From the IMG/VR virus record IMGVR_UViG_3300010883_000339, positions 1 to 27,215 of that record: a stretch of 27,215 bases of DNA. One strand, given 5' to 3'. Origin of the DNA: a virus. The stretch's first letter is position 1; every line of letters begins with the position of its first letter. The notes below the pieces were generated by a model that saw only the letters and a program-made list of their open reading frames with translations, made no database searches and was not told the DNA's origin. This document shows, piece by piece, positions 458 to 21,200 of this stretch. Made by a program: the position numbers and the translations under genes.

Positions 458-744
458 AGAAAGATCTTGAAACATTAATAGACGAAGCATTACAAAATAT
501 TAGAGATGATAGACAGCTCGCGAGAGAATTATTAAACGATACTGCAAATTTAATTGCGACCAGCCCAGACGATAGTCGATATCTCGGGCCCGTTGCTGCT
601 AAACATGTTGAAACTTTGCAAAGGTCCAATGAGCAGCTTGTGAAACTTATTTCAATTACGCAAAAAGAAGAAAATAGCGTTAATTCTCTATCAGATAAAG
701 ATAAGCAAGATTTGTTTGATATTATTAAGGAGAATAATGCTTAA
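454..744 (+). CDS. Small helical protein of unknown function, coupled to the sigma factor
   Basis: Its 96 residues look almost wholly alpha-helical and charged, with no signal peptide or membrane segment. Residues 46-72 (GPVAAKHVETLQRSNEQLVK and following) form the most family-like part, a helix with regularly spaced hydrophobic residues. The C-terminus ends in a short acidic/hydrophobic stretch, DKQDLFDIIKENN. The start is chosen because ATG 454 overlaps the upstream TGA (ATGA) and follows a GAGGGAGA ribosome-binding site; the stop overlaps the next start (TAATG). Position and size recall T4 gp33, the late-transcription co-activator (112 residues) that works with gp55, and the C-terminal hydrophobic patch could be a clamp-contacting tail. 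That is a guess from context only. It could equally be a small assembly or chaperone protein for the hub gene that follows. Confidence 0.8.
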   Translation: MKKDLETLIDEALQNIRDDRQLARELLNDTANLIATSPDDSRYLGPVAAKHVETLQRSNEQLVKLISITQKEENSVNSLSDKDKQDLFDIIKENNA

Positions 745-2678
745 TGGCCGACAATGATGCCCCTAAAAAGTCTCGTTTAGGTTTTTTAAATCCAATCGCC
801 GGCGGCTTCGAACAGATTATCGATGGTGTTCGCGACGCCGGCGTAATGTTTCAGCAAACCTTAGAAAATATCCGCCGCGGCCAGGAACTCAATATTTTTA
901 GAGGAACTACCGATTATAAGGCTATAATTGTATCCACGCCTCAAATAATCAGAGCCAAGGATCCCAACGATGTGCTTGACAAAAATCATTATCAATTTAG
1001 AGCCAGAATTCCGGAAGTCCATGCCGAAATTCCAGATCCTTTTTGTTTCATGGAAGTCGGCGGCACTGGCAACAGCGACGACACCAAGACCCGCGGCGAC
1101 GAATCCGAGGCCTCCAGACATCGTGCAAAACATCCTTTGTTTGTTTCTGACGATTCCGCCCAGGACTCGATCGACGGCCTAGTCATTGGGGATATTGTCT
1201 GGGTTAGTTATAAAAAGGGCCCCGGATCGAGTCGAGGTATAGGTGGCAAATTTCTAGCTAGAACCCGTGAGGCAAAATATAGTGGTTATGAACAAGATTG
1301 CGCGGATATGGTTAATAAGCCAGCCAGCAATTGGTGCGGCTTGTGTCCCGGAGCGGCCGGAGATCCTAATAGCTGTTATCCTAACGCTGGGGGATCTGGT
1401 GATACCTATGAAGGCGCGCCAGCTGTATTGAGCGACGGCTATGGCAATACTCCATATAAGTCAGGCCACAGTGTCGCCGCCGATGCAAAAAGTGGCCCTT
1501 GTTCAGAATTATATTATGAAGATAAATATGGCCTAGGCGTTGGCAAGCCACAAGTTAGTCCTTGTTGTTGTGGGCAAACTATTAAATGGGGGGCGGCTTA
1601 TGATCCAGACGCCAATACGACCTGTCCAGAATCGCGTGGCTGCCATTCATTGGTGTTAAAAAGTAGCTCGAAAGATGCCGGCGGAGCAGATTATAGTGTT
1701 GTTGATAAGTATGCCAAGGGTGAAGGTGGAATTTTAAATTGTAGCACCGGCGCCTATATCAGATATGAAGTATCACCAGCATCGTTAAACACATTGGTTA
1801 AACCTTTATGGCTAGCCTTTATTGCCGAAGTTAAAAGAGTGGTGGGAGGCGGCATAGGATTTAGTTATACATCTGTTAGAAGAAGCGTAAAGCATCAATG
1901 GATTTTATATACAGGCCGCCAGGGCATGGGCCCCAGAAGTGGTATTTATTTTCCAAGCAAGCCGATGGGGGCTAAAACAGTCACCGGCCACAGAGCTGGC
2001 GCAGCATGTGATGGCAAGTGGACAATCGCGAACGAATCGGCTATGAACCCCGGATGGAGTGGTTTAAGTTATCTTCAATTGTGTGATAAAATTAATACAG
2101 AAATAGCTGGTAACAGATCGCCATCTAAATTCGGAATTGGATGGTTTGGTGACGGAGACGATGTTCATTGGGAAATGTATTATGCCTCTATTGATCCAGA
2201 TACCGGTAAGGGGGTCGCCCCGGGACAAGGCGGAACAATGACTAAATTATCAAGCCGCAGCCTAGGGTTGGCCGCCATAGGCGAGGCCGCCTGGAATTAT
2301 TATTTCGGACTTCATGGTTCTAATTCTTGCAACTGGCATGAAGATCTTGTAGATTTACCCTTAGAGTTTTTAGTAGACATGTGTCCCACTGGAGAGTTAA
2401 AATGTTTGGCACAATTGGGTGACCCATCTACATATGATCCTACCGTACTTCGAAGTGGAATAGTTTCTGAAGAGACACTATCAGCCAGCATCTTTGGTGT
2501 TGATTCCTCCGCGGCCCAGCAAATGACCGATCTTGATTTGGCCGCCATGGAACAAGATCTGGGAATAGCTGCAGCTCCCGGTAGCGAGCATTTGGATTTG
2601 GCTGTCTTTGATGATGAAGAGGACTTTCAGTGGGACGATCCTTACGATTCGCAAGCTGGGCCTCTGGCCGTTAGATAA
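744..2678 (+). CDS. Baseplate hub/spike protein: gp5-like OB fold plus M15-type peptidase domain
   Basis: Its 644 residues divide into four parts. Residues about 56-175 look like the gp5/VgrG-type OB fold: YQFRARIPEVHAEIPDP, then a loop, then LVIGDIVWVSYKKG and GIGGKFL. Residues 186-333 form a loop-rich insert with 11 cysteines, including CGLC (198-201) and CCC (274-276). Residues about 335-480 carry the M15 D,D-carboxypeptidase/L,D-endopeptidase pattern: HRAGAACD (416-423) fits HxxGxAxD with zinc ligands His416 and Asp423, and DDVHWE (472-477) supplies the third ligand His475 with a preceding acidic residue. An upstream SVRRSVKHQW resembles the usual S-x-R-S-x-x-x-Q stretch. The C-terminal 160 residues are acidic and unassigned. 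T4 gp5 has a lysozyme in this position; here a peptidase appears to replace it. The inferred role is a tail-tip enzyme that cuts peptidoglycan peptides during injection. The TAATG start overlap couples it to the gene before. Confidence 0.72.
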   Translation: MADNDAPKKSRLGFLNPIAGGFEQIIDGVRDAGVMFQQTLENIRRGQELNIFRGTTDYKAIIVSTPQIIRAKDPNDVLDKNHYQFRARIPEVHAEIPDPFCFMEVGGTGNSDDTKTRGDESEASRHRAKHPLFVSDDSAQDSIDGLVIGDIVWVSYKKGPGSSRGIGGKFLARTREAKYSGYEQDCADMVNKPASNWCGLCPGAAGDPNSCYPNAGGSGDTYEGAPAVLSDGYGNTPYKSGHSVAADAKSGPCSELYYEDKYGLGVGKPQVSPCCCGQTIKWGAAYDPDANTTCPESRGCHSLVLKSSSKDAGGADYSVVDKYAKGEGGILNCSTGAYIRYEVSPASLNTLVKPLWLAFIAEVKRVVGGGIGFSYTSVRRSVKHQWILYTGRQGMGPRSGIYFPSKPMGAKTVTGHRAGAACDGKWTIANESAMNPGWSGLSYLQLCDKINTEIAGNRSPSKFGIGWFGDGDDVHWEMYYASIDPDTGKGVAPGQGGTMTKLSSRSLGLAAIGEAAWNYYFGLHGSNSCNWHEDLVDLPLEFLVDMCPTGELKCLAQLGDPSTYDPTVLRSGIVSEETLSASIFGVDSSAAQQMTDLDLAAMEQDLGIAAAPGSEHLDLAVFDDEEDFQWDDPYDSQAGPLAVR

Positions 2679-2695: not shown

Positions 2696-3775
2696 ATGGC
2701 AGACTGGAAAACAAAAAAACAAGTAGATACAGCTAATTGGCCTCAACATGTTAAAGATGTAATTAACGACCCAGTTGGCATGCGCAAAAGAATTCAAGAA
2801 ACTCATACTCTTGGAGTCGCAAACACAACATTAAGTGAGCCCCGCCCAGACTATTTTTTCACTCCAGACAGTGATGAAAAACATATGGGAGGCAAGGCTA
2901 ATACACATATTATTTTCGGCAGAGATCAGCCCAATAATGCTTGGAGTGGCCACGGCGGCAGCGGTCACACACAAGCTGGATCAATTGCTTTAATTGCGGG
3001 AATGTCCCCACATGTCAAAGATGAAACTTTGGTCAACAAGAATGCGATTGATGATTCTGCAATGCTTTATATATCACAAAAAACCGATGTAGATACAAAC
3101 TTTGGTTTAGCCGAGGGTGAAATTGGGAATATTTCAAACAGATCAGCAATTGCTATAAAAGCAGATGGTGTTAGAATTATTGGCCAAGAAGGCGTTAAGA
3201 TTACTACCGGTGGCGCGCAAAATACAAAAGCTCGAAGCCGAGATGGTGAATCGAGTGCAGCTTTAAGTTCGTTAGATGCTGTGTTTACCGAGAGAAATTC
3301 AGACGGCGGCTTCTCCGCACAACCGGCGCCGGGAATTGAATTGATTGCTGGAAATAATACTGAAAAACAAAAAATAGGTTTTATAGGAAAAGCTTTGGGC
3401 TCCGATAGCGATGAAGTTAGTACTTTGCAGCCAGTGCCTTTAGGTGATAACTTAGCGGACTGCTTAATTGAAATGTCAGATATCATATCTAAATTAAATG
3501 GAAAAGTTGCTGATTTTGCACGCGCACAAAGTAAATTTAATGGTGCAATCATGACTCATACACACCAGCTGATGCCTCTTCCTGTCCCTCCGTTTTTGAT
3601 GGCCGGCCCATCATTAAAATTGGGTGCTGCTGGTATTAAGAATGCGGTCTCTATGATTACTAAAGTTCATGCTGGACTAATAGCGCACAAACTGGATATA
3701 ACTTTACACCAAATTAATTATTTGCGAGATTTCGGATCTCAATGGATTTGTAGTGAAAACGTTAGAACAACCTAG
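2696..3775 (+). CDS. Putative baseplate spike/puncture accessory protein
   Basis: This is a 359-residue protein. After a 65-residue leader there is GRDQPNNAWSGHGGSGHTQAG (in part residues 75-95) followed by short beta-strand-like repeats: GSIALIAGM, SAMLYISQKTDVDT, SAIAIKADGVRIIGQEGVKI and GIELIAGNN. These resemble strands in triple-stranded beta-helix or prism spikes such as the gp5 C-terminus and VgrG tips. Residues 246-290 (VPLGDNLADCLIEMSDIISK onward, ending FNGAIMTHTHQ) are helical and end in His-Thr-His (288-290), an HxH pattern like the metal-binding tip of phage P2 gpV. About 70 more residues follow, so the tip analogy is imperfect. I recall similar proteins beside hub genes in aquatic T4-like phages, with no assigned function. 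AAGGA at 2682-2686 supports the start. The spike role is inferred from neighbours and strand pattern. Confidence 0.6.
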   Translation: MADWKTKKQVDTANWPQHVKDVINDPVGMRKRIQETHTLGVANTTLSEPRPDYFFTPDSDEKHMGGKANTHIIFGRDQPNNAWSGHGGSGHTQAGSIALIAGMSPHVKDETLVNKNAIDDSAMLYISQKTDVDTNFGLAEGEIGNISNRSAIAIKADGVRIIGQEGVKITTGGAQNTKARSRDGESSAALSSLDAVFTERNSDGGFSAQPAPGIELIAGNNTEKQKIGFIGKALGSDSDEVSTLQPVPLGDNLADCLIEMSDIISKLNGKVADFARAQSKFNGAIMTHTHQLMPLPVPPFLMAGPSLKLGAAGIKNAVSMITKVHAGLIAHKLDITLHQINYLRDFGSQWICSENVRTT

Positions 3776-3783: not shown

Positions 3784-6700
3784 ATGGCAGATATAACATT
3801 TAAAGATTTTCAAGCAACAATAGTAACAAATAATGATGGAACGGATATTGAAGTTTCAATTGAATGTGTTGATTTTATTGAAACCGCTGTTCCCGAAGAG
3901 GTCTGTCCGACTTGTATCCCAAACCCAAAGGCTATAGAGCCAAATTGGAAAGTTATAGCTCCTTTAAAAATTGCTGCCTCAAATATTAATTACACCGATA
4001 CAAATGCGGCCGCTATTGAGCCAGATAGTATTGGCGCGCCATATTTAAACGAAAAAACTTGTGAATATTCAATCGCTGTTCGAACTCATTACGAGACAGC
4101 AACTGCAGCCACTGACCATACCGGAGAAGCAACAGTAATTGATGCAATCAATAATCCATGGTATAACATGCAACACTATGTCGAACCAGCAATCCGTGCT
4201 TTATTACGATATTATGGCAAATTAGAAACAGATAGTATTTACGATTCTGATGGAGAGGTGATAAGCATTGGAACAGTTGATGCTTTAAAAATCGTCACTG
4301 CTGCAGTGGACTATTATGTTCCATTTAGACCGCTATTAAATATGACAGTGTTGGTGACTGTTCCAGCTTTAAATTTCGATCAAATAGAAAGCGAACCTGA
4401 AGAGACCGAAGAGCTAACATCACTGGGCGATATCGAATTCGAACTACAAAACTTAAGAGGATACACGAGAAGGACAACAAGAGTGTTCAAATTATATCAA
4501 AGATATTTATCTGAGTTTGAAAAAGAATATGGTGGCGGTTTGTTTTTCGAAGATCAGACTCAACTGATAATAGCAACACCAGTTAAAAAATCTCCAACCC
4601 ATCCAGACTGGAATGAGAATAATGAAAGTTTTCATCTTAAACAGGTTGTAACTTCGATCTTTGATTTTATTTTTTCAAGAGGATATAAAACCCGAGGAAA
4701 ACCAAGAGCCGGCCAAAAAGTTGCAACTTCTATAAAAATTGGATTTGAAACAGAATATTCTGGACTATCTTATATTAAAATTATAGAAAAAGGGTGCGAA
4801 GACAATGCTAAAACTTTTTCTGGAAATAAAATTATATCTTTGACAGAAAACGAATCATTTAAAAGACCAACAACTTTAGGATATTTAGCCAAATTATCAG
4901 ACATGAATGAAGATTTGTTAGCTAGAGAGCCTACAGACTATTTGACTTTTTTGAAAAGATATACTTATCCCAGTTTATCCGTTAATTATGGTTCATCGTT
5001 ACCATCGCAAGAAGATGAAAGTTTAATATCTTGCATCTCTAATAATTTAAATATCGATGAGTCCCTGGAAGCTGGTCTCAAAGCTATCGTTAAAACGCCC
5101 GAAATAATTCTTAAGAGATTTAGTGAAAAATTGTGTAAGTCCGCCGCCGAAGCTATGAAAACGGAAGAGGAGGAAGGAGAAGAAGGAGAAGAGGGCGATG
5201 ATAGTACTACTGATACATCCTCAATATTTCCCCGGGTCTCAAAAAGAGAAAGTAGAAGACTTTTTGTTAATACTGCCATTGAGTCAGCAATGGAGGAATA
5301 TTATAAAGACGACACTATATTTGACGAATTACACGAAATTTTAGCCACAATAGAAGGTGAAGATGTAAAAGAAAAATTAAAAGAGTTTAGAAAAGAATTC
5401 TTAGGCAAGATCAAGCAGTGCGGACTTTATTCTTTTATGCTCAGAGGCATTCAATGTTTGATGGGAGGTATGTCTTTAACTGATTCCTTATATGTCATGA
5501 TCGAAGCTGCGCTAAAAGGTATGGATATTGACGGCATGCATAAATTGTTTGTCGGATTGCCATTGAATGCACAACTTGAGATTGAAGAAAAAGTTAAAGA
5601 AAAATTAGCCGAAAGGCTTGCAGACAATCAAGATATATATGCTCAAGATGGCACCGGCTTTGTCGGCGGCTTATTTGGCACGGCCATGGAAAATCCCTAC
5701 AACGGCGCGCCTTTTATAATTACTGGCCCAACTGCAGAAGGATATAAAGCAGGGCCCGGCTGGTATCAAATTAAAGTCTCTACCCTCACCGGCGGCCCGT
5801 GTTCGCCTCCTGGAACGATTTGCGATACTAGTATAATGAACCCCAACGTAGGCTCCATCGACAGCGATGGGGCATACCAGCCCCGCGATGTTGCGACTTA
5901 TGAATCTCATCCTGAAGGATATTGGTTCACCGAATCAACAATGAAATCATATCAACAAATTAATGGATCCTATGAACAATGGGTCGTTGATTACAGTTTA
6001 CAAGCTAATGGATCATTTATGGATCAGATTCGTGCCAATGGTACGAAGCAAACACCTAATTTCTCCGGAGAAGAATTATTTGGAAATATCTCATCCGATA
6101 TTGGAAAGGAGCTGCAAGCTACCTCAGCCGCTACCAAGCCAACAGCAACAAGAAGAACTCTGGCGCCATCAAGATCCGGCGGAGCTTATAACGCAGCCGG
6201 CGGAGATAGCATCCCTGGAATTATTATAACCGCATATATTGAAGCCATTTTAGAATATTACACCACATCGGGAACATTGGAAGAATTATTAGAGAGTCTA
6301 CAAAGATTTCCAGGCGCCGAAATTGTATTTAGAGTTTTAAAACAATTAGATTGTTCTGTGCCGCCACTTTTCGATCCTGGAGTTCCCGATTTTTTAAAAT
6401 CGCTTGATATTGCTGTTTGCCGATCACAAAGAAAATTAGTTATACCAAAATTCCAGAATCCAAAAGCTTGGTTGAGCGAATTGGATCCATTGGCCTATCT
6501 TAAAGAGGTAATTATAGATAGAATAGAGACGATAATCTGGGACTTAATGGTTGCTTTGGTAAAGAAGTTAATGGAAGTAGTAGGAAATGCACTGTGCAAA
6601 GCTTTGGAATTGGTTGGAACGATTGTAAAAGAAGCATTTACTCCGGGAGAAGCAAGCCTAAGATCAATAATCCAAGAAGTTATTTGTGGATCAGAGGCGA

Positions 6701-9700
6701 CCGAAGAGGACATAGATCAGACAATTGCCGATATTTTTAATTCAATCGGTGGCGCTGAATCAACTGCCAATACAGATGCTGTTAATTCTTTAGTTAATGA
6801 TTTATCAAATGGGTTAACAAGAAATGAAATGACAGATCTGTTAATAGGCAGATCAAACCAGACCGCAACCAAAATAGCAAAAGAAATTATAGACCAAGAG
6901 CATACAGAGTTTTCAGCCGTTTACAGCTCAGAAAGCAAAATAGCTAATTTGTTTGGTATAATTGGAAAAGCGATTCCAGCCGAATATCTAGATATTTTAG
7001 ATCACCTAGACGAAAGAGATACTCCTCTTGGCGGCATGCCAGTCAATACTGCCAATTGTTTAAGCAGCGAACAAAAACGCGCCTTTGATCAAGCCAGAGC
7101 CGGCATTTTAGATGGAAAAGGCGAATCTAAAGAGTTTATTAATGAATTAGTCGCTAAAGAAAACGAACAAGCGATTAAAGATCTATCTGATCTTAGCGGT
7201 GTTATGCAAAAAGGACTAGGCAGTTATATTGCAGAGAACATGCCAGATATTATGGCAAAAACAAATTGCGACATTGATACAGGTAGAGCTATTATTGCCG
7301 CAGTTCCTAAAGAATTAGTGGCAATAAATGATGAAATAATGGATAAAATGTTTCAACTAGTATTTCTTCAATTAATGGATGATCTGGTGGGTAAAAAAGG
7401 TTTTCTATCATTGGTTTTAAGTGATACGTTAGGGAACAATTACCCAGAGCATATAAGAAAAGTTTCAAATCAAGACGATTATGTTAACAGCTTCAGAGAC
7501 TCCGAGGATAGTGATAGAGTTTCTGTTAATAGAGAAAAGGGATATCATCCTTTTACTATTGCAACTTGGTTAGCTCAACAAATATTAAAAAATACTGCAT
7601 TCAACATTGGTGGCATGGCAACGGCTCTATCAACACCACATGGTGGAGGGCCTTGGAGCACAAATGGAATGAGCACCACCTCACAATCTGAAGTGTCTGC
7701 CATCTTAAGTACAGGAGAAACCATAACAGCGACCGTACCAGAAGAACAAAATTATAATTTAAGATTGGAATATCAAGACAACAATGATGGCCAAGGCTCA
7801 ACGACATATGCTGGAATTGCAGCCGATTATGATTATGGCTTTTATTTAGATTATTATCAATCAGTTGTTGCAGTACAGTCTGGCGTTAAATATGGCACTG
7901 CACCGGGCACGATACCAAATGCAGTTGTAACAGATGATATTAGTAGGATTAAAATTACTGAATTCAACCCAAATACAAATTCTGTTAAATATGATTTTTA
8001 TGTTATGGGATCTTTAGATGAAGATGTTTCTGAACTAAAGGCAACATTTGACTTGAGTGAAGATACCACGGTTGATACACTGGGTGGAACCGCCAATGCT
8101 TCAACAAATCTATCCACCTCTCCACAGAGTTATGTTTTTTCACAATATGTCGATGGAATATTATCGACAGTCGGCATGCCATCTTTGGCGGCCGTGCTTA
8201 GAAATTCAGATTTCAATTATGTTTCAGATAAATTTGTCAGCAGACTACTGCAATCAATTGCCATAAATCCATCTGATGAGACTTATGGCCTCACGCCAGC
8301 ATTCATTTACGGTAAAGAGATTGGCGAATTAACTGATATTGATTTAGTTTATGTTAAGCCTGATGCCGATGTATATTCATCAAACACCGGCGCCGATGAA
8401 GTCAGCTCAGAGGATTTATATAACATAGAAGAAGAGTTACAAATTTTGGGTCGCAGTGCTACAGATCCTGGCGATGGCAGCTCTAGAGTACATTTCTTAG
8501 ATCCGGCTAAATATGGCGGCCGCTATAATAATCCTCCGATCTATATTGGCCCTCCTAAAAATACGGGCTGGTTGGCGTTTGCAAAAGGCGTTATGCCAGA
8601 ACTGGATGGATGTGAGCCGTCAAAAGCGCAGTTAATTAATTTTAACGATATTAAAGAAAGGGTCAATGAATTACTTCAGAGCATACCCGATGACGAAAGA
8701 TTATCTATGAATCCAGATTGTGTTACGGAAGTGCCATATGCTAGAATTATGAATTCTTCAGCCATAGCCGGAATAGAGGGTTCAATACTGGCAACAATAC
8801 GAATTTATGTTGCAGAACACATGGTAAAGGCCATGGCCACATTTAGTAAATTTCAAATCATATCTCCAGATGTTTTTGATGATACCTTTGTGCAATATAT
8901 AATAGCAGTCATGGAAGGGGATCTGAAAGAATATGGAAAGAAAATTGGACCGCTTAAAGATGATGGATATTGGCTATCATTTTTAGAACAAGCTACACAG
9001 GCCACCGGCAGAATGGTGGAGAGCGAAGAAATGGAGATTATAGACGGCTCAGCTGAAGATATTGCAATCGTTACTATTGAAGACATGCAAGATATATATG
9101 TGTATCCAGGCCGCGATGAATGGTTGGGAAAGACTAGATCTGGCTTAATGTTCAATGAAACTGTTATAACTGCTGCTTTGATCGCCGGCGGCCTTTTATT
9201 GCCCGGTGTCGGATTGCTTACGGCTCTGGGAGCAGGGCTTATAAGCGGAGCTTTGACTGGTGGAAAAATCGCTGACTCTGTGAACGAGTACATGTTAAAA
9301 AATAATTTTGATGATGACGTTCCACCATGGTATGCGGATCGTTTACAAATTGGATCAAAATTAACACTAAAAGCATATCGAGAAACTAAAAAGCTTTTAT
9401 ATATTGAAAATACACAAGATTCTGCAAAAGTGCTATTAGGAAGACTAGTCAAAGATCAAATGAAAAGCCTAGCACAAACCTTTAGAGATCAAATGTATTT
9501 GTATGAACCCAAATTAACTGCCAAGATTCACGATATTACAAAACATTTTATTGGCACTAGCAAAATGTGTTACGGAAGTTCTCTGAGAGCCGACCTGTTT
9601 AATTATGATGATCCTGATCCAATAACTGGCGAATATGCCGCAGAATATTCTTCCGCAGCATATGACGGTGTTGGAGATGTTTTGGATGTTGCTGCTTGGG

Positions 9701-11211
9701 CTGGAGATCAAACCGGCGAAGAAGTAAAATCTGAAGGTCGCACAAATCCGTTAGATGGGCTTGAGCTTTCTGAATTATGTTTGTCTGATTTTGCTGATAC
9801 TGCCGTCGAGGATGCCCCTTACTATAAATATGCTGATATTATATATGGTATTAATCCATCCGAAGTCGATCCAACAAGCAATAATCTTGCCTCAAACCGC
9901 GCTAGCTCAAGCGATGAAGAGACAATTAAATCTTCAGCAAGCACTGTCCTGGGCGGGTATTCGTTTAAAACTGGAGAGTTTATTGTTGAGAAATATATTT
10001 ATGTTGAAGACAAAATTGAAGCTGGAATGCAGTTTGATATTGATGCAAATTATCCAAATGAAATTATAGACAGAGCAACTTATCTTCGTAATGTGGTTAA
10101 TTTAAGTGAATTTTCAGCTTATTTAAAGGGAGACCAACCAGGAGCGGCAGGCTTTCCCGTAAATGGAACAATGGAGTCGCCTAATGGCATTCCAGATGTT
10201 GATTATGGATATGGTCTAATTGGAGGAGCAAACCCTGTCATTGATCCCGAAGCTTTAATATCTGATTATTTTGGTAATTTACGCTATATTTACGATGATG
10301 CCGATGTGGACCAAGCAACGCCTACCGGAATTGAAGGATCAATTGGTTTGCGTTATGGTTTAAGAATTTCCTATATTCCAAGTAAAGATTTTGTAACTGT
10401 AATTGAGCAACATAATGATGGCACTTCCAGCTCAGATCCCACAGGGGAATATAAAAATATTTTATCTTCTGAAGGTCTTCGTGATGCTGCTCAAAGATAT
10501 AAAGCATTCCTGTTAGAATCGCCATCGGCTTTTGAGCTTGGAGTGGATGTTAACAATTTAGAATTCAATGATCGTTATCAGGCTATAGCCATGAGTTCAA
10601 AATATTTAATCCCACTAGTTTCGGCAGAAATAGATGTAATTGACGGGCCCATAGGCGAATTCTCAATTAATAATTATGATATGGCCTGCTTGGTTGATAA
10701 ATTAGTTCAAATGCCTGAGTTTAAATTGTTATTTAAATATGCGTTTCCTTTAAACAGATTCCTTTCAATCGTTGGAATTTATAATTCCGAGGGATTCTTA
10801 CCATCTATCGGACAAATTACAGAAAATTATAGATCTACCGATGCCGATGGGACTGGAGTTTATGGATGGAGAGAGAGTGACAAAACTGAAGCCACCGATC
10901 CTAGAACAGTTGGCGAATGGGATTCTAACGCGCATGACGGTACGATAATTCAAAGTAATTGGGATAGGTGGGACAAAACCGCATTTGAGAGCACAAAGAA
11001 AAGTCTAAGAGATATGTTTTTGGCTTTTTATAATGAAAGAGATTTTGACTATAAAGACGAATTCGAACGCAGAAAGTTGGTTGATCTTCTGAAAGATATG
11101 GGTATTGGCGGATTAATGAACGAAAGAATGAAATGGCGCCAAAGAAAACGCGTTAAAGATAGGCCATTTAATAGTCAAGATGAGGCTTGTGATGTTTATA
11201 AGTTGACCTAA
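3784..11211 (+). CDS. Giant baseplate-region protein of unknown function (2475 residues)
   Basis: I do not recognise a named family. The N-terminus has EVCPTCIPNPKAIEPNW with Cys41 and Cys44, and then LNEKTCEY with Cys93; I recall this CPTC...EKTCEY arrangement in very large proteins of aquatic phages. Residues 461-473 are an acidic run (EEEEGEEGEEGDD). Residues 590-620 look like a charged helix or coiled coil. Residues about 840-1230 are largely helical, and about 1310-1430 look beta-rich. Residues 1793-1827 form a strongly hydrophobic segment with a glycine zipper (GLISGALTG, GxxxGxxxG at 1818-1826), like a membrane-inserting or tape-measure hydrophobic region. The C-terminus is basic (MKWRQRKRVKDRPF). 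Its place between spike and gp25 genes suggests a hub or central baseplate component. A tape-measure or gp29-like role is possible, but the mixed fold content argues against a simple rod. No internal stop or frameshift is seen. Confidence 0.9.
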   Translation: MADITFKDFQATIVTNNDGTDIEVSIECVDFIETAVPEEVCPTCIPNPKAIEPNWKVIAPLKIAASNINYTDTNAAAIEPDSIGAPYLNEKTCEYSIAVRTHYETATAATDHTGEATVIDAINNPWYNMQHYVEPAIRALLRYYGKLETDSIYDSDGEVISIGTVDALKIVTAAVDYYVPFRPLLNMTVLVTVPALNFDQIESEPEETEELTSLGDIEFELQNLRGYTRRTTRVFKLYQRYLSEFEKEYGGGLFFEDQTQLIIATPVKKSPTHPDWNENNESFHLKQVVTSIFDFIFSRGYKTRGKPRAGQKVATSIKIGFETEYSGLSYIKIIEKGCEDNAKTFSGNKIISLTENESFKRPTTLGYLAKLSDMNEDLLAREPTDYLTFLKRYTYPSLSVNYGSSLPSQEDESLISCISNNLNIDESLEAGLKAIVKTPEIILKRFSEKLCKSAAEAMKTEEEEGEEGEEGDDSTTDTSSIFPRVSKRESRRLFVNTAIESAMEEYYKDDTIFDELHEILATIEGEDVKEKLKEFRKEFLGKIKQCGLYSFMLRGIQCLMGGMSLTDSLYVMIEAALKGMDIDGMHKLFVGLPLNAQLEIEEKVKEKLAERLADNQDIYAQDGTGFVGGLFGTAMENPYNGAPFIITGPTAEGYKAGPGWYQIKVSTLTGGPCSPPGTICDTSIMNPNVGSIDSDGAYQPRDVATYESHPEGYWFTESTMKSYQQINGSYEQWVVDYSLQANGSFMDQIRANGTKQTPNFSGEELFGNISSDIGKELQATSAATKPTATRRTLAPSRSGGAYNAAGGDSIPGIIITAYIEAILEYYTTSGTLEELLESLQRFPGAEIVFRVLKQLDCSVPPLFDPGVPDFLKSLDIAVCRSQRKLVIPKFQNPKAWLSELDPLAYLKEVIIDRIETIIWDLMVALVKKLMEVVGNALCKALELVGTIVKEAFTPGEASLRSIIQEVICGSEATEEDIDQTIADIFNSIGGAESTANTDAVNSLVNDLSNGLTRNEMTDLLIGRSNQTATKIAKEIIDQEHTEFSAVYSSESKIANLFGIIGKAIPAEYLDILDHLDERDTPLGGMPVNTANCLSSEQKRAFDQARAGILDGKGESKEFINELVAKENEQAIKDLSDLSGVMQKGLGSYIAENMPDIMAKTNCDIDTGRAIIAAVPKELVAINDEIMDKMFQLVFLQLMDDLVGKKGFLSLVLSDTLGNNYPEHIRKVSNQDDYVNSFRDSEDSDRVSVNREKGYHPFTIATWLAQQILKNTAFNIGGMATALSTPHGGGPWSTNGMSTTSQSEVSAILSTGETITATVPEEQNYNLRLEYQDNNDGQGSTTYAGIAADYDYGFYLDYYQSVVAVQSGVKYGTAPGTIPNAVVTDDISRIKITEFNPNTNSVKYDFYVMGSLDEDVSELKATFDLSEDTTVDTLGGTANASTNLSTSPQSYVFSQYVDGILSTVGMPSLAAVLRNSDFNYVSDKFVSRLLQSIAINPSDETYGLTPAFIYGKEIGELTDIDLVYVKPDADVYSSNTGADEVSSEDLYNIEEELQILGRSATDPGDGSSRVHFLDPAKYGGRYNNPPIYIGPPKNTGWLAFAKGVMPELDGCEPSKAQLINFNDIKERVNELLQSIPDDERLSMNPDCVTEVPYARIMNSSAIAGIEGSILATIRIYVAEHMVKAMATFSKFQIISPDVFDDTFVQYIIAVMEGDLKEYGKKIGPLKDDGYWLSFLEQATQATGRMVESEEMEIIDGSAEDIAIVTIEDMQDIYVYPGRDEWLGKTRSGLMFNETVITAALIAGGLLLPGVGLLTALGAGLISGALTGGKIADSVNEYMLKNNFDDDVPPWYADRLQIGSKLTLKAYRETKKLLYIENTQDSAKVLLGRLVKDQMKSLAQTFRDQMYLYEPKLTAKIHDITKHFIGTSKMCYGSSLRADLFNYDDPDPITGEYAAEYSSAAYDGVGDVLDVAAWAGDQTGEEVKSEGRTNPLDGLELSELCLSDFADTAVEDAPYYKYADIIYGINPSEVDPTSNNLASNRASSSDEETIKSSASTVLGGYSFKTGEFIVEKYIYVEDKIEAGMQFDIDANYPNEIIDRATYLRNVVNLSEFSAYLKGDQPGAAGFPVNGTMESPNGIPDVDYGYGLIGGANPVIDPEALISDYFGNLRYIYDDADVDQATPTGIEGSIGLRYGLRISYIPSKDFVTVIEQHNDGTSSSDPTGEYKNILSSEGLRDAAQRYKAFLLESPSAFELGVDVNNLEFNDRYQAIAMSSKYLIPLVSAEIDVIDGPIGEFSINNYDMACLVDKLVQMPEFKLLFKYAFPLNRFLSIVGIYNSEGFLPSIGQITENYRSTDADGTGVYGWRESDKTEATDPRTVGEWDSNAHDGTIIQSNWDRWDKTAFESTKKSLRDMFLAFYNERDFDYKDEFERRKLVDLLKDMGIGGLMNERMKWRQRKRVKDRPFNSQDEACDVYKLT

Positions 11212-11276: not shown

Positions 11277-11774
11277 ATGGCCAGTTTTAGTGGAATCGCC
11301 CCGCGATTACCAATACACAGAGACAGTGAATCGGGAATCGCACTAACACAAACAATTAGTGAAAATACCCGGCAAAATTTAAAAATGTTATTATTAACGT
11401 CCCCCGGCGAAAGAATAATGCATATTGATTATGGCGTTGGGATTAGAAGAATGCTGTTCGAACCAAAAGGAACAGTTATACGACTTTTAAATTCTAGAAT
11501 TAGATCTCAAGTTAAAACATATATGCCCTATGTTACAATAATAGATCTAGAAATTCATACGGAAGATGAAGGTAATCTATCTGGTTTTTTAAAATCAATC
11601 TCGCGCGGAATCGGTACTGGCATGATATCAAACACGCTAGGTTTGGCTATAAAATATAGAATTAATCGCGCCGCCACTGATGATTGGATAATTATAGCCA
11701 CAGGAACTGCCGCCAGTGAAGTGCCATATGTTGCATTTGCCTCTCAACAGGCGTCGTCACCATATGGTTCATAA
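11277..11774 (+). CDS. 25: Baseplate wedge protein, T4 gp25-like
   Basis: It has 165 residues, against 132 in T4 gp25. The family core is clear: about residues 32-62 read RQNLKMLLLTSPGERIM and DYGVGIRRMLFEP, the hallmark of gp25/GPW-type proteins of contractile tails and type VI secretion (TssE). VTIIDLEI follows at 86-93 and a final strand, LAIKYRI, at 123-129. In T4, gp25 joins the wedge to the sheath and primes sheath assembly, and the same is inferred here. Between the last two strands lies an extra segment (101-122, SGFLKSISRGIGTGMISNT) and there is a C-terminal extension of about 30 residues, both absent from the minimal fold. The start is well supported by GAGGAG at 8 bases. The gp6 homologue follows 32 bases downstream, a natural partner in the wedge. 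Confidence 0.9.
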   Translation: MASFSGIAPRLPIHRDSESGIALTQTISENTRQNLKMLLLTSPGERIMHIDYGVGIRRMLFEPKGTVIRLLNSRIRSQVKTYMPYVTIIDLEIHTEDEGNLSGFLKSISRGIGTGMISNTLGLAIKYRINRAATDDWIIIATGTAASEVPYVAFASQQASSPYGS

Positions 11775-11806: not shown

Positions 11807-13636
11807 ATGCCAAGTCGACCTAAAAAATTTGCTTTTGCTGGTGGTAATCCAAATCCCATAGATTATACTAGTCGCGAGTATGAAAGTATTCGTCAAGATT
11901 TATTAACATATGCGAAAAGATATTATCCCGACTCTTTAAGAGATTTTAGCGAAAACTCGTTTGGTTCATATTTGATAGATTCTATATCATATGTAGGAGA
12001 TATTCTCTCATTCTATATGGACTATAATGCTAATGAGGCATTTTTAGATACTGCTAGTCAATTTAATAATATTGTTAGATTAGCCAAAAATAGCGGATAT
12101 AAATACCCAGGAAGATCTTCTGCTTATGGCGTTATAGCAATGTATGTTATTGTGCCATCCAATAATGCCGGCACCGGTCCAGATCTGGATTATCTAAAAT
12201 TAACAATTAAAAGAAACACTAGAGTTAGAGCAGATGGCACTGGCGCCTCATTTTTACTATTAGATAATGTTCGTTTTGATCGAGCTTATAATGATTCAGT
12301 TGTTGCAAGAGTGGATGAAACAACAGGAGTCCCGACTGCTTATGCTCTAAAATCATATGGCCGCGTTGTATCTGGTCAGTTCGCTGTAAAAAATATTACA
12401 ATTGGAAATTTTCAAAAATTTAGACAAGTTATTATAAGTGATTCTAAGGTCTCGGAAATTTTAACTGTTGTGGATTCAGATGGAAATAGATATTATGAAG
12501 TTGATTATTTATCCCAAAATGTAATATATAGAGAAATTATCAATCCTGACGGTTCAACAGATGGCGTTCCATCTATTATGAAGCCCGTTGCCGTTCCAAG
12601 AAGATTTGTAACCGAACGTCATAGAAGCGATACGGTACTGCAATTTGGATATGGCTCGGAAGAAGAGTTGAAAAAACCATCTGTTGCTAATCCAAAAAAC
12701 ATTTTATTAGATGTTTTTGGAAAAGATTATTTTACAGATGTCAGTTTCGATCCATCTAAACTTATGGGAACTGACAAGTTTGGAGTTGGTCCGGCAAATA
12801 CTACTTTAACGGTTACATATAGACAAAATTCTCCCGGTTCATCAAATATTCCAGCTGGCCGTCTTAAGACAGTCGCTTCTTTAAATTATGAATTTGATAA
12901 TCCATCTAAGCTCAATCAAACAACTAGATCAGAAGTGTTAGCTTCTATAGAATGTTATAATGAATCTCCCATTGTTGGCGATCTGTCTGTTTTGTCAAAA
13001 GAAGATATTAGACAGCATGCTCTTGATATGTTTCCGACACAAAATAGAGCAGTAACAAAACTTGATTATGAAGCCATTGTTTATGCTATGCATCCAAAAT
13101 ATGGCTCAGTTAAATGCTGCGCAATATTCCAAGATCCAGACTCATTAAAAAGAAACTTGAATTTATATATCCTATCGGAAAATCAAAATCAACAATTGAC
13201 CGTTGCTAGCGATGCATTAAAAAGAAATTTAAAAACATGGTTAATACGTTATAAAATGTTAAATGATACAATTGATGTACTGGACGGAAAGATTGTTAAT
13301 ATTGGCATTAATTTTACTGCTAAAATGTTGCCGGGCCGCGATCGAGAAAGTGTTTTAAATAATTGTCTTAATAGGATTAAAAATGCTACATCTCCGAAAT
13401 ATTATTTTGGAGAACCTTTTGATATAGCCAGAATATATAAACTTATTAATACCGTCCCTGGTGTTATGGATTGTTTAAAAGTTGAGTTAGTCACAAAATC
13501 AGGATCTCCATATTCTTCCACAAGATTTAATCTCGATAGAAACATATCTGCCGATGGGACTCAATTAAATGTTCCAAAAAACGTTATATTAGAGGTGAAA
13601 TTTGCAAATGCAGATATTAAAGGAAGTCTTAGATAA
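11807..13636 (+). CDS. 6: Baseplate wedge subunit, T4 gp6-like (Baseplate J family)
   Basis: Its 609 residues are close in length to T4 gp6 (660). The N-terminal region, about residues 16-120, has the typical pattern: PIDYTSREYESIRQDLLTYA, then DFSENSFGSYLIDSISYVGD, ILSFYMDYNANEAFLDTA and RLAKNSGYKYPGRSSA. The C-terminal Baseplate-J region, about 405-570, has AVTKLDYEAIVYAMHPKYGS, NLNLYILSENQN, and FGEPFDIARIYKLINTVPGV. In T4, gp6 dimers form the inner ring that holds the wedges together and binds gp25, gp53 and gp7. AAAAGGAA at 11793-11800 is a good ribosome-binding site. The stop overlaps the next start in TAATG, coupling it to the following gene. Nothing looks truncated. Confidence 0.92.
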   Translation: MPSRPKKFAFAGGNPNPIDYTSREYESIRQDLLTYAKRYYPDSLRDFSENSFGSYLIDSISYVGDILSFYMDYNANEAFLDTASQFNNIVRLAKNSGYKYPGRSSAYGVIAMYVIVPSNNAGTGPDLDYLKLTIKRNTRVRADGTGASFLLLDNVRFDRAYNDSVVARVDETTGVPTAYALKSYGRVVSGQFAVKNITIGNFQKFRQVIISDSKVSEILTVVDSDGNRYYEVDYLSQNVIYREIINPDGSTDGVPSIMKPVAVPRRFVTERHRSDTVLQFGYGSEEELKKPSVANPKNILLDVFGKDYFTDVSFDPSKLMGTDKFGVGPANTTLTVTYRQNSPGSSNIPAGRLKTVASLNYEFDNPSKLNQTTRSEVLASIECYNESPIVGDLSVLSKEDIRQHALDMFPTQNRAVTKLDYEAIVYAMHPKYGSVKCCAIFQDPDSLKRNLNLYILSENQNQQLTVASDALKRNLKTWLIRYKMLNDTIDVLDGKIVNIGINFTAKMLPGRDRESVLNNCLNRIKNATSPKYYFGEPFDIARIYKLINTVPGVMDCLKVELVTKSGSPYSSTRFNLDRNISADGTQLNVPKNVILEVKFANADIKGSLR

Positions 13637-15228
13637 TGGGCATTAAAAAATACGTTGCAACAAAAGATAATACAATAACAAATGCTTATATGTTTAATTT
13701 AACCACGCGTGCTACCGGTGCAAGTATGGGTGCCTCCGATATTATTGAAGTGTTTTCAATTTACGGACAAAATTCTGCCTCCGCTGATGGATATTCTTCA
13801 GAATTATCAAGAATTTTGATTCAATTTCCAGTCACTGGAACGACTTCCATGTCAACAGATCGCACCAATGGTGTACTCCCCGCTAGCGGAAATGTTAGCT
13901 TTTACCTTAAATTATATAATGCAAGACACTCTCAAACAACACCTAGAAATTATCAATTAGCCGTAGAACCTCTAAATGCATTTTGGCAGGAAGGTTATGG
14001 TTTAGACATGGATGGCTATACAGACTTGAATTATGGCAACATTGGCTCAGACTGGGCAAGAGCAACTGACGCAGCTGCCTGGACCGCCCAAGGCGGAGAT
14101 GTATTAGCTGCACCAGCCTCTCTTACAGTTAAGCAAAAATTTGATACTGGAGTTGAAGATTTAGAAATTGATATAACTCCATTAGTAGAATATTGGATCG
14201 CAGGAAGCCAAAATAACTTTGGCGTCCGTATAAAACTAGATGGATCATATGAAGCTTCAGGTAGTGGAAATACTAGCGGATCCGCCAGATCATATTATAC
14301 AAAAAGATTTTTTGGAAGAAATACAGAGTTTTTCTTTAAGCGTCCAATGATTGAGGCTAGATGGGATTCTGCCACCAGAGATGATCGCGGTAATTTTTAT
14401 TACAGCAGCTCTTTGGCAACAAGAAAAGATAATCTCAACACGCTCTATTTTTACAATTATGTCCGTGGCCAACTTAAAAATATTCCTAATCACGGCACGC
14501 CCGGAAAGATATATCTTAGCTTGTATTCCGGATCCGAAAACAATAGTCGACCTATGCCGGCCGGCGAGGCTTTAACCCTCTCTGTTGATACAGTTTTCGG
14601 AGGCTCCAGCAAGATGGTAATCACGGGTGGTCTTTTGCCGGGTAAAACTGGTATTTATAGCGCCAGTCTTGCGATTACAGCCGCAGTGACTGGAACAACC
14701 GTTGTTGGGCCACTTACAAAACTATTTGATGTTTGGCACAATGGTTCTGGTAGTGCTCAATCCGGTTATTTACAATTTCATACTGGCACGATTCATCCAA
14801 AAATCTTAAAAGGCTTACATTATGATCCGGATTTTACTTATATTTCTACAATTAGAAATTTAAAACCAATTTATTCAGACACAGAAACAGCTAGATTTAG
14901 AGTTTTTACAAGACAAAAGAATTGGTGCCCTACTATTTATACTAGAGCAACAAAAAATATTTCTGCAACATTAATCGATAGCGCCTCATACAAAGTCACC
15001 AGAGTAATAGACGGCTTAGAAGTGATTGGTCATGATACCGGTAGCAGTAACGATGCGTCGACACAACTATCTTTTGATGTGTCCGGAAATTATTTTGATT
15101 TAGATATGAAAATCTTAGAGCCTGGATATTCATACAATATAGGATTGGCATTTTATAATGGAGCAATTGGATCTTGGGTAGATCAACCACAAGCATTTAA
15201 GTTTAGAGTCGAGCAGGATGAGAAATGA
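13636..15228 (+). CDS. Baseplate-associated protein with DNRLRE-like beta domain
   Basis: It has 530 residues. The first 230 or so follow the order of a DNRLRE/carbohydrate-module-like domain: KKYVATKDNTITNAY, SRILIQFPV (a buried strand), FYLKLYNARHS, VEPLNAFWQEGYGLD (the W-x-E-G stretch), AAWTAQGGDVL, LEIDITPLVEYWIAG and NFGVRIKL. The rest (about 230-530) is beta-rich with many Ser, Thr and Tyr residues and looks like stacked beta-sandwiches; it contains FYYSSSLATRKDNLNTLYFY and GKIYLSLYSGS. Such domains are known in cell-surface and phage adhesive proteins. Coupling on both sides (TAATG at its start, ATGA at its end) and a place between gp6 and the giant wedge protein suggest it belongs to the wedge, perhaps in the position of T4 gp8 or gp53, though I see no direct similarity to either. 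Confidence 0.75.
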   Translation: MGIKKYVATKDNTITNAYMFNLTTRATGASMGASDIIEVFSIYGQNSASADGYSSELSRILIQFPVTGTTSMSTDRTNGVLPASGNVSFYLKLYNARHSQTTPRNYQLAVEPLNAFWQEGYGLDMDGYTDLNYGNIGSDWARATDAAAWTAQGGDVLAAPASLTVKQKFDTGVEDLEIDITPLVEYWIAGSQNNFGVRIKLDGSYEASGSGNTSGSARSYYTKRFFGRNTEFFFKRPMIEARWDSATRDDRGNFYYSSSLATRKDNLNTLYFYNYVRGQLKNIPNHGTPGKIYLSLYSGSENNSRPMPAGEALTLSVDTVFGGSSKMVITGGLLPGKTGIYSASLAITAAVTGTTVVGPLTKLFDVWHNGSGSAQSGYLQFHTGTIHPKILKGLHYDPDFTYISTIRNLKPIYSDTETARFRVFTRQKNWCPTIYTRATKNISATLIDSASYKVTRVIDGLEVIGHDTGSSNDASTQLSFDVSGNYFDLDMKILEPGYSYNIGLAFYNGAIGSWVDQPQAFKFRVEQDEK

Positions 15229-18200
15229 GCATCAAAAAGATCTTCGAGAAACATAAAAACCTATCTAGCGGTAAACAGGACGAAGCTAGCGCATTTAATG
15301 AAATCGAATCTGTTCGGAACGCAGAAGAAATTATTGAAGCGCATAGAGAATTTGAGCCACCGGTAGTTTTTACATCGGGCGGAGCAAATTATGCAAAATT
15401 TGGATCCGCAGAAAAATATTTTATTGATTGTTTCTCTAGAATTTTAAAACAATATCCTTACGACGGCACCGAAGCCGAAAAGCAAGCTTATCATAATGAA
15501 TCTACTTATCTTGATCGTTATGTTCTTAAGAACAAATATCCGACTACTACTGGATATGCAACACTTTCTGCAAATAATTGGGGAACTAGGGCCGCAATAT
15601 CAGATGGGTATGGTACTCCCGGCTCAGCTTCTTTAGAATATATTAAAATCGTTGGCGGGCCACATAGTAATTCTTCTGGATTTGGTGGAAACTACAGTGG
15701 TGGAAAAAGCCAATTTACAATTCGAGAAACGTTTACTGGTTCAAACTTGGTTCAAGGACCAAAAACAAATCAGGCAAATGTATATAAAGATAGTAGCCCC
15801 CCAGAACATCCTGCGAGCCGGAAAGGCACAAGAGAAGGTAATTTAAGGACTGATTTAGATAATGGCATAACCGTTGAATTTTGGTTAAGAAAAGAAGGAA
15901 TAAATACTGCTCAGACAAGCAGAGAGGCCATTTTTGATTTATGGAATGGCGTTGCTGTTGGTGAAACCGGCTATGGTAGATTTACAATTGAGTATAATTC
16001 GAGCGCTAGCGCATCTCCTTTAAGAGTCACTTTATTATCTGGTACCACGGGTGTAAGTGATAAAGTTGTAGGATCATCTTTAACATTAGCAAACACAACT
16101 GGAACTTTATCGAATGAATCTGCACCTTGGAGACATTACGCACTTTCCGCTGAAAATTCTGGCTCTAATTTAGTTTTTAAATTATATGTTGACGGTCAGC
16201 TCGATGAGACACAGACTTATGCTAGCAAGAATATGAATGAAATTACCGGAGCAATGATAGCCCATATCGGCGGATTGAGAACTGCTCCCGGTTATACAAC
16301 TTCTTCTTGGGGTATGAAAGGCTGGGGCAAATTATCAGCATCAATGGATGAATTCAGGTTTTGGAAAGTCGCTAGAACTCACGAAGAGGTTGGAAGAAAT
16401 TGGTGGACACAAGTTGGCGGTGGCACAAACACAGACACAGCAAATACTGAACTTGGAGTGTATTATAAATTTAATGAAGGGATTACCCAAACAGCATCCG
16501 TAGATAATACAGTGCTAGATTATTCTGGCAGAATATCAAATGGCTCATGGGTTGGATATGCTGCCGGCGCAAGAAATACCGGCTCTGCAATGGTCTCTGC
16601 ATCTTTAACAAGAAACTTAACCTCGCGCTGGGGATGGGAAAGAGAAGATCCAATATTGTATTCTTTTCACCCAACGCTCAAAGATCGATTACGTGATTTA
16701 AAATTAACTGGATCTTTATATGATGATAGAAACTCCGCCGCTTTAATTAATAAAATACCGGCTTGGATTGTTGAAGAAGATGAAGTAAGAGGTGGTAGCA
16801 CCGAAACCACATTTAAAAACACAATCCAATTAATTGCCAGTTATTTTGATAAACTTTGGCATCAAATTGATGCATTTAAGGATATTCAAGTTCCAGGATA
16901 TATTAGTTCAAGCGCCCAGCCCTATCCGTTCAACCAGCAAAGAGTAGAAAGTCGCGGACTTTTTGCACCAGAAATTTTTATTGACGCCAGTATAATTGAG
17001 AGATTTCTTTCAAGAGACGAAGATAGGGATTACGAATTAGAACTTGTAGACATTAAGAATTTAATTTATCAAAATCTCTATAATAATATTACGCACATTT
17101 ATAAGTCGAAAGGCAATGAAAAATCAATTAGAAATTTATTACATTGTTATGGAATTGATGAAGATTTAATCAAACTTAATATGTATGCTAATAATGCAAC
17201 GTATAAATTACGACCAAATTATAAAGCAGCAGTATTAAGAAAGAAATATATTGATTTTAATCACACTGATAGAAGTATTGGAACTGTTTATCAATACTTA
17301 AGTTCTTCAAATTCAAATACTGTTTCATATATTTCCGGAAGCGATCATACGGGAATATATCCAGATCTTGAAGATTATTTAGGAGCAACTATTGAGTGTG
17401 AAGTGATATTCCCAACTCAGCATGCAGAAAATAATGATGGATATTATAATAGAACATTCTTTACTTCATCATTGTTTGGTTGCCATACGGCCATTCCAAA
17501 CTCTGATCAGACCAACACCGATACATCATGGGCTAACGCCGCAGGTTCAATCGGATCCAGCGATTATGCCAATTTTCAAGTTTATGCGGTTAGGGCAGAA
17601 CAGGAATCACCAAATGCGCAATTTTATTTAACTTCATCGGGCATGCCCGGTTTGGGGATTAAACTCACCAGTTCATTCTATAATAATCTTTATGACAGCG
17701 AAAGGTGGAACTTTTCAGTTAGAATTAAGCCATCTAAGTGGCCACGTTCTGATGGGGTTTCCGGTAGCGCATTAGATGATTTAACATATGATATACACTT
17801 CAAGGGTATGAATACGGTCTTAGATGATGTGGCACATAGTTTTGAAGTTTCAACATCAGTTAGTAATACAATTGGTAAAAGATTTATGCGCGCCTCCAAG
17901 AGACTTTATATTGGTGCGAGGCATACAAACTTTACTTCTAGCGTTGTTCAAGAAAAGACAGATGTTAGAATTTCTTCTTTGAGATATTGGACGAAATATT
18001 TAGATAATGTTACATTAAAAAATCATGCGATTTATCCCACATCTGTTGGAATTGGCAATCCTATGCGCAGTGCATATGGGCCCCTGCAAAGCTCATTAAC
18101 TGGCACATATGTTCCAAATATTGACACATTGGCTCTTAATTGGGATTTTAGTAATGTAACTGGATCCGGAACCGCAACCGATTCCGCGACTGCAGATGCA

Positions 18201-21200
18201 AAATTCGTTGTACGAGACATTTCATCTGGATCAACATCGCTAAGTACAGGGCGCTATGATTGGTTAGGCAAAATAGTAAATCAACAACATTCTGGTCGAG
18301 GTGACTTTTTCTTAGGAAATAAGGATGATGTTGTTAAAAACGATTATGTTTATGCTGCAAAACAAACTTTACCGGAGTACATTGTTAGCTCTGATATGAT
18401 CGAAAATGTTTTGCAAATTGATGATGTAGTATTCACCAGAGAATCTAGAGTAATGCAGCACTTTTTCTCAATTGAGAAAAGCATGTACCAAAGCATATCA
18501 GAAGAAATGTTAACAATGTTTGCAAATATTGTAGATTTCAATAATCTAGTTGGACAACCGGTTGATAGGTACAGGCCAGAATATAAATTGCTGGGCAAAT
18601 TTAGACAAAGATTTTTCGAAAATGTTAGAAATACTCCCAGTTTAGATAAGTTTGTTGATTTTTATAAATGGATAGATGCATCATTGTCAATAATGATACT
18701 GCAATTATTACCTGCATCGGTGGTTGCTTCAGATGGCATTCAAACCATGGTTGAAAGCCACCTTTTCGAAAGAAATAAATATTGGACCAAATTTCCAACA
18801 TTGGAGATGAAGGAAACAGATCCAAATACACACATGTTTGGAATTACTGAACATTTATACAATTGGAAATATGGACACGCTCCGTTGAAAGATGGGATAG
18901 GAACAGCCCGTAGAAACGGCGGACAACGTAATGGCTGTCTTTGGTGGAATCACCGCGCCGAACGAACAGATTTTCCATTAACATCTAAAGACTCTACAAT
19001 TGACGACCATAAAGAAAAATATAAACGAGAACTTATTACACATGTTTCGGCTTCTGGCCCTACACTTTATTCTGTTAAAGATAGTCAAGTTTATTTTGGC
19101 TCAACTTATGCATTAAGAAGATTTCCAAAAATTTATAGAGAAAAAATTGATCAAATGGTCTCTTTGAAAGGCGGTGTCAATTTCCATAGAAATAAAAAAA
19201 TTGATTTTGTAAATATCGCGACTTTGCCAATTGGTCCCTTACATACTCCCGCCGGCGGAGGAGGATCTGCAGGCATTCCATTAAATGTTCTGCTTACTTT
19301 CGATTGCGATGAAGCTAAGCTAAGAGATTGCAATGATATTTACGAACCTAATGATGTTCATAGGCCTTTTGAAAAGAAACACAGGCACTTTGCCGTTAGA
19401 CACGGAAGGGACTGGGAGCAAGGTGGCGGATATGCTAATGTTAAGTCAGAAATAGCCTTTCCTTGCAATATTATTAGTTCTTCAATGCGATTTGGACACC
19501 TGCATGATTATAATGTGCACACTTACAAGAGGTTTGTAACTGGCGCTATTGTTACAAATCTGCACAATGATGTTTATGGAGAGGACAGAGAAAAGCCATT
19601 GCAGGGCCCATTTACTGAAAGATGGGTTGGTGGCCACCAATCACGACATATCGCACTTAACGAGCGCAGACCTAGCACGACTACATTTTTTCCCTTTAAC
19701 TTGACTACTAAAAATCTAGACAACGTGTATACGCGCCCAGAAAATTGGTTTATCTTGCTTGGCGATTGTCAAGAATTGGAACCCTGCACAGATAATACTG
19801 GCGCTTTAGGATTTGTTGGCCCTGATTATCCTTATCCATCTACAGCCTCATGGTGGAATCGGGCAAACCCAAGAGCCAGATATTATCGTCTTAATGGACT
19901 TGGAGTTAAACGACCGGTCAATATTTCAAATATTCTTACCACAGCATCATTTGGAGGCCCAGGAGATCCTGCGGGTGGTGGTGCAACTGTATGTGGTAAT
20001 TTTGAAAAAAATTATCAAGTGGTGCACACATGCGGAAGAAGTGCAAATAATTTATGGTTTAAAACACACGAAAGTGCCGCTGTACCATCGAGAGTAAATG
20101 ACATTAATGTAAATGATGATGCGCTGCATGCAACAACAAACATTCATGGATTATATTCTTTAGGAACTGGCAGCGGAATAACTGCAATTAATGCTTTTCT
20201 AACTGGAAATTTTGGGATATCCACAAAGCGAACTGGTTTTAACAACTTTGCTCCCGACGAAATGCAAATTGCTAGCTCCAAGCGTGGCCACAATACAACA
20301 AATGCAGTAAATAAAACAGTTTTTGTAAACAGATTTTCTGCCCCAGGCGGCCCAGAGGTCATGACCGAGGGGTATTTAGACATACATGCTGGAGAAAATT
20401 CTCCATACAATGCGCTACCGTATAGAAATTTAACTGTTCGTGGTAGCGGTTCGGGTGAAGCCGGCTCTTATAGAATGGCAAATCATTTAACTGGTGCTGC
20501 AGCCTCCAGAGACGGCTTAAATACTTGGTGGAGAAGGCATAGCGCAAAATTTGGTGCTGATCCGATTCATGCAAAGTCATTTATTAATGGATCTTCGCTT
20601 GGGTATTTGGACGCGCCCACATATTACAGGCAATTCCATAGAAATAGCCGCGATAGAGTTGAAATTACCGATGATACCGGTATTCTCTCACCACTGCAAT
20701 CCCGAGTTGGAACAGGCAACAAACAAAGATACGACAATGCTTGGATTCGCCACACTCTTCCGCAAAATGAATCGCAATATTCATGGATTAGCGCCTCTAT
20801 TTTAACTGGTCAAAAAGTTTATGGCTACACTGCATATGATGGGGAGACGACTTCAAGCTATCCAATCTTAGATCAGCAGATTACCAGCAGCGATCTTAGG
20901 TGCGGAACGGCATCAGCCGGAACGCTCTTCGGCACAAAGGTTCATCAAGATTTTGTAGGATTAAATACTTTGACGCGCGACGGGATAACTGGCTCTTATG
21001 ACGGGGGTGTGCACGCTACCGCATTAATTAAACTAGTCTCGACCGGGCCAACAACTGCTGAAACGCTAATCATTGAGGATGCATCGGGAAATCCACCGGT
21101 TACATTTACAACTGACGATAGCGTGAACAGGGGTGATTCAACCGCCACCATCATTGGAATTGCAGACGTTGATGATTTAGCAAAATTCACAACCGCTGTC

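Follow-up and report, generated by a model that had tools for sequence, protein, structure and literature searches.

A candidate tail hub with an M15-type peptidase domain in an uncultured virus, and the enzyme slot of its relatives

The hub gene and its neighbourhood

The window analysed here is an IMG/VR record of 27,215 bases. Its features are compiled in Table 1. At the left end lies a partial ORF (2-457) with a weak PHROG match to a late sigma factor (E 0.006), and behind it a conserved ORF of small size (454-744); the same order is found upstream of the hubs in L005/L046 and L140. The next ORF is the hub candidate. For this protein the first-pass annotation had described an OB-like region, an insert, and the motifs HRAGAACD (residues 416-423) and DDVHWE (residues 472-477). 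Insert and motifs were recovered where they had been placed, the insert at residues ~184-330 and the motifs at nucleotides 1989-2012 and 2157-2174. The insert holds 10 Cys in 147 aa between the OB and M15 domains and has no relative among the collected hub ORFs. It is possibly a disulphide or metal module. Lactoferrin matches of the window hub fall inside this insert, look compositional and were rejected.

Table 1. Features of the window, and tandem hub genes in three related lineages
Feature	Position	Strand	Remarks
Tail-tip hub candidate, 644 aa	744..2678	+	OB-type N-terminus, Cys-rich insert, M15-type peptidase domain, acidic tail
N-terminal domain, residues 1-190, predicted OB-type fold	744..1313	+	AF2 pLDDT 76.8; top Foldseek PDB matches are OB-containing proteins
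Cys-rich insert, residues ~184-330	1293..1733	+	10 of the protein's 17 Cys
M15-type peptidase domain, residues 327-531	1722..2336	+	Homologues, profiles, fold match
R380, conserved M15 Arg	1881..1883	+	By alignment VanX Arg71 / ChiX Arg47 (PMC5778951)
H416, predicted zinc ligand 1	1989..1991	+	Invariant in 26 M15 payloads
D423, predicted zinc ligand 2	2010..2012	+	Invariant in 26 M15 payloads
D472, predicted catalytic acid	2157..2159	+	Asp like Ply500 Asp130 / ChiX Asp120; Glu in most relatives
H475, predicted zinc ligand 3	2166..2168	+	Invariant in 26 M15 payloads
Conserved partner gene, 359 aa, putative spike/needle	2696..3775	+	Directly downstream of hub; marker for relatives
Baseplate wedge gp25 homologue	11277..11774	+	Pfam GPW_gp25 3.6e-10
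Baseplate wedge gp6 homologue	11807..13636	+	PHROG 219 E 1e-18
Tandem hubs upstream of partner gene	L140:5380-7835; L120:130-2060; L116:3015-5785		Common N-terminal domain in each hub

Many homologues of the partner gene, the window copy included, have an HxH close to their C-terminal third, a possible parallel to iron-binding spike tips. The two giant ORFs of the baseplate cluster (15225-25709, 3494 aa; 3784-11211, 2475 aa) gave no significant Pfam match. In its placement the larger one resembles gp7 of cyanophage S-SM2, which is also very large.

Relatives were gathered with the gp6-like gene, which returned 38 contigs, and with the partner gene, which returned 11. An alignment of the partner gene extended this to 429 contigs, 80 of which were kept for analysis. 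As hub equivalent we took the ORF immediately upstream of the partner-gene homologue. With the window copy of the partner gene as query, 0 cultured phage records were found. By gp6, the cultured phages closest to the window have Microcystis and Flavobacterium as hosts. In the stretches examined of Mel-JY01, immuto and LR756508 neither a recognisable hub N-terminus nor the partner gene was present. In the bacterial genome collection a relative of the partner gene occurred only in L156 (CP070664.1), a MAG of candidate division WOR-3. Because a single relative of this kind is too little, we make no host claim.

The M15-type domain

We scanned 6551 ORFs (1.0 Mres) from the window and the collected loci for HxxGxAxD ... 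[DE]xxH[WFY] at M15-like spacing. The pair was present in 38 ORFs. Five rounds of shuffling all ORFs yielded it once, and shuffling the window ORF 20,000 times yielded it 3 times. Since 36 of the 38 are hub ORFs and the shuffles stay near zero, the motif lies far above chance and is tied to the position of the hub gene. The other two ORFs (L070, L108) are short and located at locus starts. That of L108 sits just upstream of a neighbour-gene homologue and is thus a partial hub. Aligning 26 payloads showed no variation at H416, G419, A421, D423 and H475 and almost none at R380.

Taken by itself, the window hub returned nothing useful in single-sequence searches of Pfam, PHROGs, PDB, cultured phages and IMG/VR. 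The comparison of its domain with M15 profiles was not significant, hhalign included, and against an M15-payload profile built without L120 the window could not be separated from shuffles. The M15 assignment therefore depends on two bridging relatives, L120 and, found after it, L140. Residues 327-531 align with the C-terminus of the L120 hub at 29% identity (blastp, E 4e-11). At the Pfam cut-off of 25 for Peptidase_M15_4, L140 passes with 25.7 and L120 falls just under it with 24.8. A profile of the window, L120 and L140 found Ply500 at E 9.5e-6 and LysB4 at 0.03. It also matched an independent profile of 19 other hub M15 domains, from which all three sequences had been left out (96%, E 1.5e-9; control 0.22). 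An hhalign comparison of alignment A7 with A3 was discarded, since A3 includes the window sequence.

The AlphaFold model of the domain is of modest to low confidence (pLDDT 59). When it was searched against the PDB with Foldseek, the top 21 matches were all M15/LAS proteins, led by Ply500, LysB4 and LysECD7. The best match had an E of 6e-3, Ply500 a probability of 0.99, and none lay at E<0.001. The domain thus combines HxxGxAxD and [DE]xxH with the conserved upstream Arg, an M15 (LAS) fold match, and a homology that runs via L120 and L140 only. The first-pass annotation had proposed an M15-type peptidase in the hub, with a profile search against M15/VanY families and a structure prediction as checks. 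The proposal holds through L120, L140, the three-sequence profile and the fold match: the profile search is positive with the two bridges and negative for the window sequence alone, and the best PDB matches of the model are M15/LAS proteins rather than another fold.

As a zinc metallopeptidase of the M15 (LAS superfold) type, the domain would use H416, D423 and H475 as metal ligands, which from the family match should meet at one metal site. D472 would be the catalytic acid and R380 would bind substrate. The window copy diverges strongly (HRAGAACD, and TG before the His where S-x is usual), has an extra loop past the last ligand and scores low when taken alone. These features would also fit an M15 fold that has lost catalysis and is kept for binding the wall or as a structural part of the tip. 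We consider this quite improbable, because ligands, catalytic acid and conserved Arg are all retained, while a site in decay should have lost some of them.

For an active enzyme the residue at the catalytic position bears on the bond that is cut. In the L-Ala-D-Glu endopeptidases Ply500 and ChiX the catalytic acid is Asp130 and Asp120, respectively (PMC5778951). The window domain likewise has an Asp three residues before the last His, with Ply500 as its nearest match. Most hub M15 domains (28 of 36) carry Glu at this position and VanY is their commonest Pfam match, as would suit a D,D- or L,D-carboxypeptidase of the VanY/LdcB type that trims stem ends instead of cutting the stem. For the window enzyme we regard such an activity as unlikely, while granting it some weight: its subgroup has DxVH, the Asp being that of Ply500 and ChiX, which is suggestive but no proof, and the profile of the subgroup ranks Ply500 and LysB4 on top, while VanY-type structures score close to chance level. 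Because D472 corresponds to the Asp of Ply500 and ChiX and the profile matches Ply500, the sequence favours an endopeptidase of the L-Ala-D-Glu branch (Ply500, LysB4).

The N-terminal domain and the role of the protein

The model of residues 1-190 (AF2, pLDDT 77) matched OB-containing proteins in the PDB, namely uS12-type ribosomal proteins, SSB, RPA and IF1. The best of these fold matches were ribosomal OB-containing proteins, not phage hubs. In BFVD the second match was 'Peptidase M23B [uncultured marine virus]'. The domain belongs to a family shared by 59 of the 64 hub ORFs. A profile comparison with nine gp5 OB domains gave no significant homology (hhalign 3%, E 0.013), Pfam Gp5_OB was not matched, and Pfam did not detect the Gp5_C beta-helix in 744-2678 or 2696-3775. 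Of the earlier description as a T4 gp5-like baseplate hub with an OB-like region, the OB-like part is upheld by the model, while the relation to the gp5 OB domain did not reach significance. Because of the latter result, the assignment of a hub role was made independently of gp5 homology.

The protein nevertheless shows the arrangement of a gp5-type hub, i.e. a predicted N-terminal OB fold with a wall hydrolase after it. The OB-type fold, the wall enzymes of the relatives and the gene order together point to a tail hub, which would be located in the virion. Missing sequence homology to the gp5 OB domain would also be expected for another tail-tip or tape-measure-associated component that does not correspond to gp5, and for 18 of the 61 members there is a match to a PHROG named tape measure, probably via the enzyme domain. 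Given that OB-type fold, wall hydrolase and a position near gp25 and gp6 together form the gp5 pattern, we hold this alternative to be improbable. The payloads often carry PHROG names with 'endolysin', which raises the question whether an endolysin or other non-virion protein lies in the tail cluster by chance. This would be very improbable for an enzyme that is fused to an OB-type domain conserved in nearly all hub ORFs and encoded, in dozens of contigs, directly upstream of the conserved partner gene. To our knowledge, endolysins are normally without such an OB-type part.

We therefore consider it highly likely that ORF 744-2678 encodes the hub of a contractile tail, in which an OB-type base carries an M15 zinc metallopeptidase that cuts stem peptides at entry and occupies an exchangeable slot. 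The N-terminal domain would be the fixed structural part of the central tail-tip protein. Upon sheath contraction the M15 domain would be brought to the cell wall, where it would cleave stem peptides. These cuts would open the mesh for the tail tube, at the step for which T4 gp5 employs its lysozyme.

An exchangeable enzyme slot and its counterparts in known systems

Beyond what the first-pass annotation had noticed, M15 is one of many enzymes that occupy the same hub position. Among 61 complete related hubs, for which one member may bear more than one domain, M15 is the commonest C-terminal payload. The Pfam matches comprise VanY (22), Amidase_2 (11), M23 (7), M15_4 (3), muramidase (3) and SLT (2), and in one hub each GH19, DUF2272, phage tail lysozyme, GDSL lipase and CHAP. 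Mapped onto a downstream-gene tree (62 rows), the presence of M15 changed at least 18 times, a raw minimum in a tree with many weak branches. The exchange can be seen directly in the DNA of L079 and L121, which is ~75% identical before and 74% identical after a stretch that diverges between hub residue ~141 and the stop; here an M15 payload is exchanged against a muramidase. In the pair L097 and L121 the break lies over the hub gene, with flanks that are 76% and 81% identical.

Three lineages (L116, L120, L140) possess two tandem hub genes. In L140 the first hub has an M15 and the second a lysozyme-looking payload. In L055 and L056 the M15 payload forms a separate ORF, preceded in L056 by a short candidate OB ORF, and the hub of L056 may be split. 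On balance it seems reasonably probable that the window is the M15 version within a large uncultured group of contractile-tailed phages, in which a fixed OB base offers a slot that was repeatedly refilled with many classes of peptidoglycan hydrolases. Some members would have tandem hubs with different payloads, such that a mixed tip could cut two types of bond.

If confirmed, this means that close relatives swap the wall-penetration chemistry of a contractile tail tip rather than keeping it constant. The relation between payload and host wall type would then become testable, and the hub set represents a catalogue of tail-borne wall enzymes. According to a review, virion-associated endopeptidases occur almost exclusively in phages of Gram-positive hosts (PMC6116005). 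The T4-like baseplate cluster studied here, which by gp6 stands closest among cultured phages to those infecting Microcystis and Flavobacterium, has M15 peptidases as its commonest payload. M15 enzymes, tail-borne lysins and the replacement of the gp5 lysozyme are already known; new are the M15 payload in a hub and the exchange slot. Neither an M15 domain in a baseplate hub nor such a slot was reported in the titles and abstracts searched, with the subscription literature outside their scope.

With T4 gp5 (Gp5_OB, Phage_lysozyme, Gp5_C) the window hub shares an N-terminal OB-type domain with a peptidoglycan hydrolase behind it, and the location of its gene in the baseplate cluster, but it has M15 instead of lysozyme and its chain is without Gp5_C beta-helix repeats. 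The Ackermannviridae gp5 of Escherichia phage FEC14 and Dickeya phage XF4 also has another wall hydrolase in place of the lysozyme, there a CHAP after a recognisable Gp5_OB. Ply500, LysB4 and ChiX have the same HxxGxAxD ... DxxH site with the catalytic Asp, whereas they are endolysins or a cellular enzyme without fusion to a tail-tip OB domain. The tape measure virion-associated lysins of T5 and TM4 provide a tail-borne wall-cutting domain that acts at entry (PMC6116005, PMC1796659). Their carrier is the tape measure, while here it is an OB-type hub.
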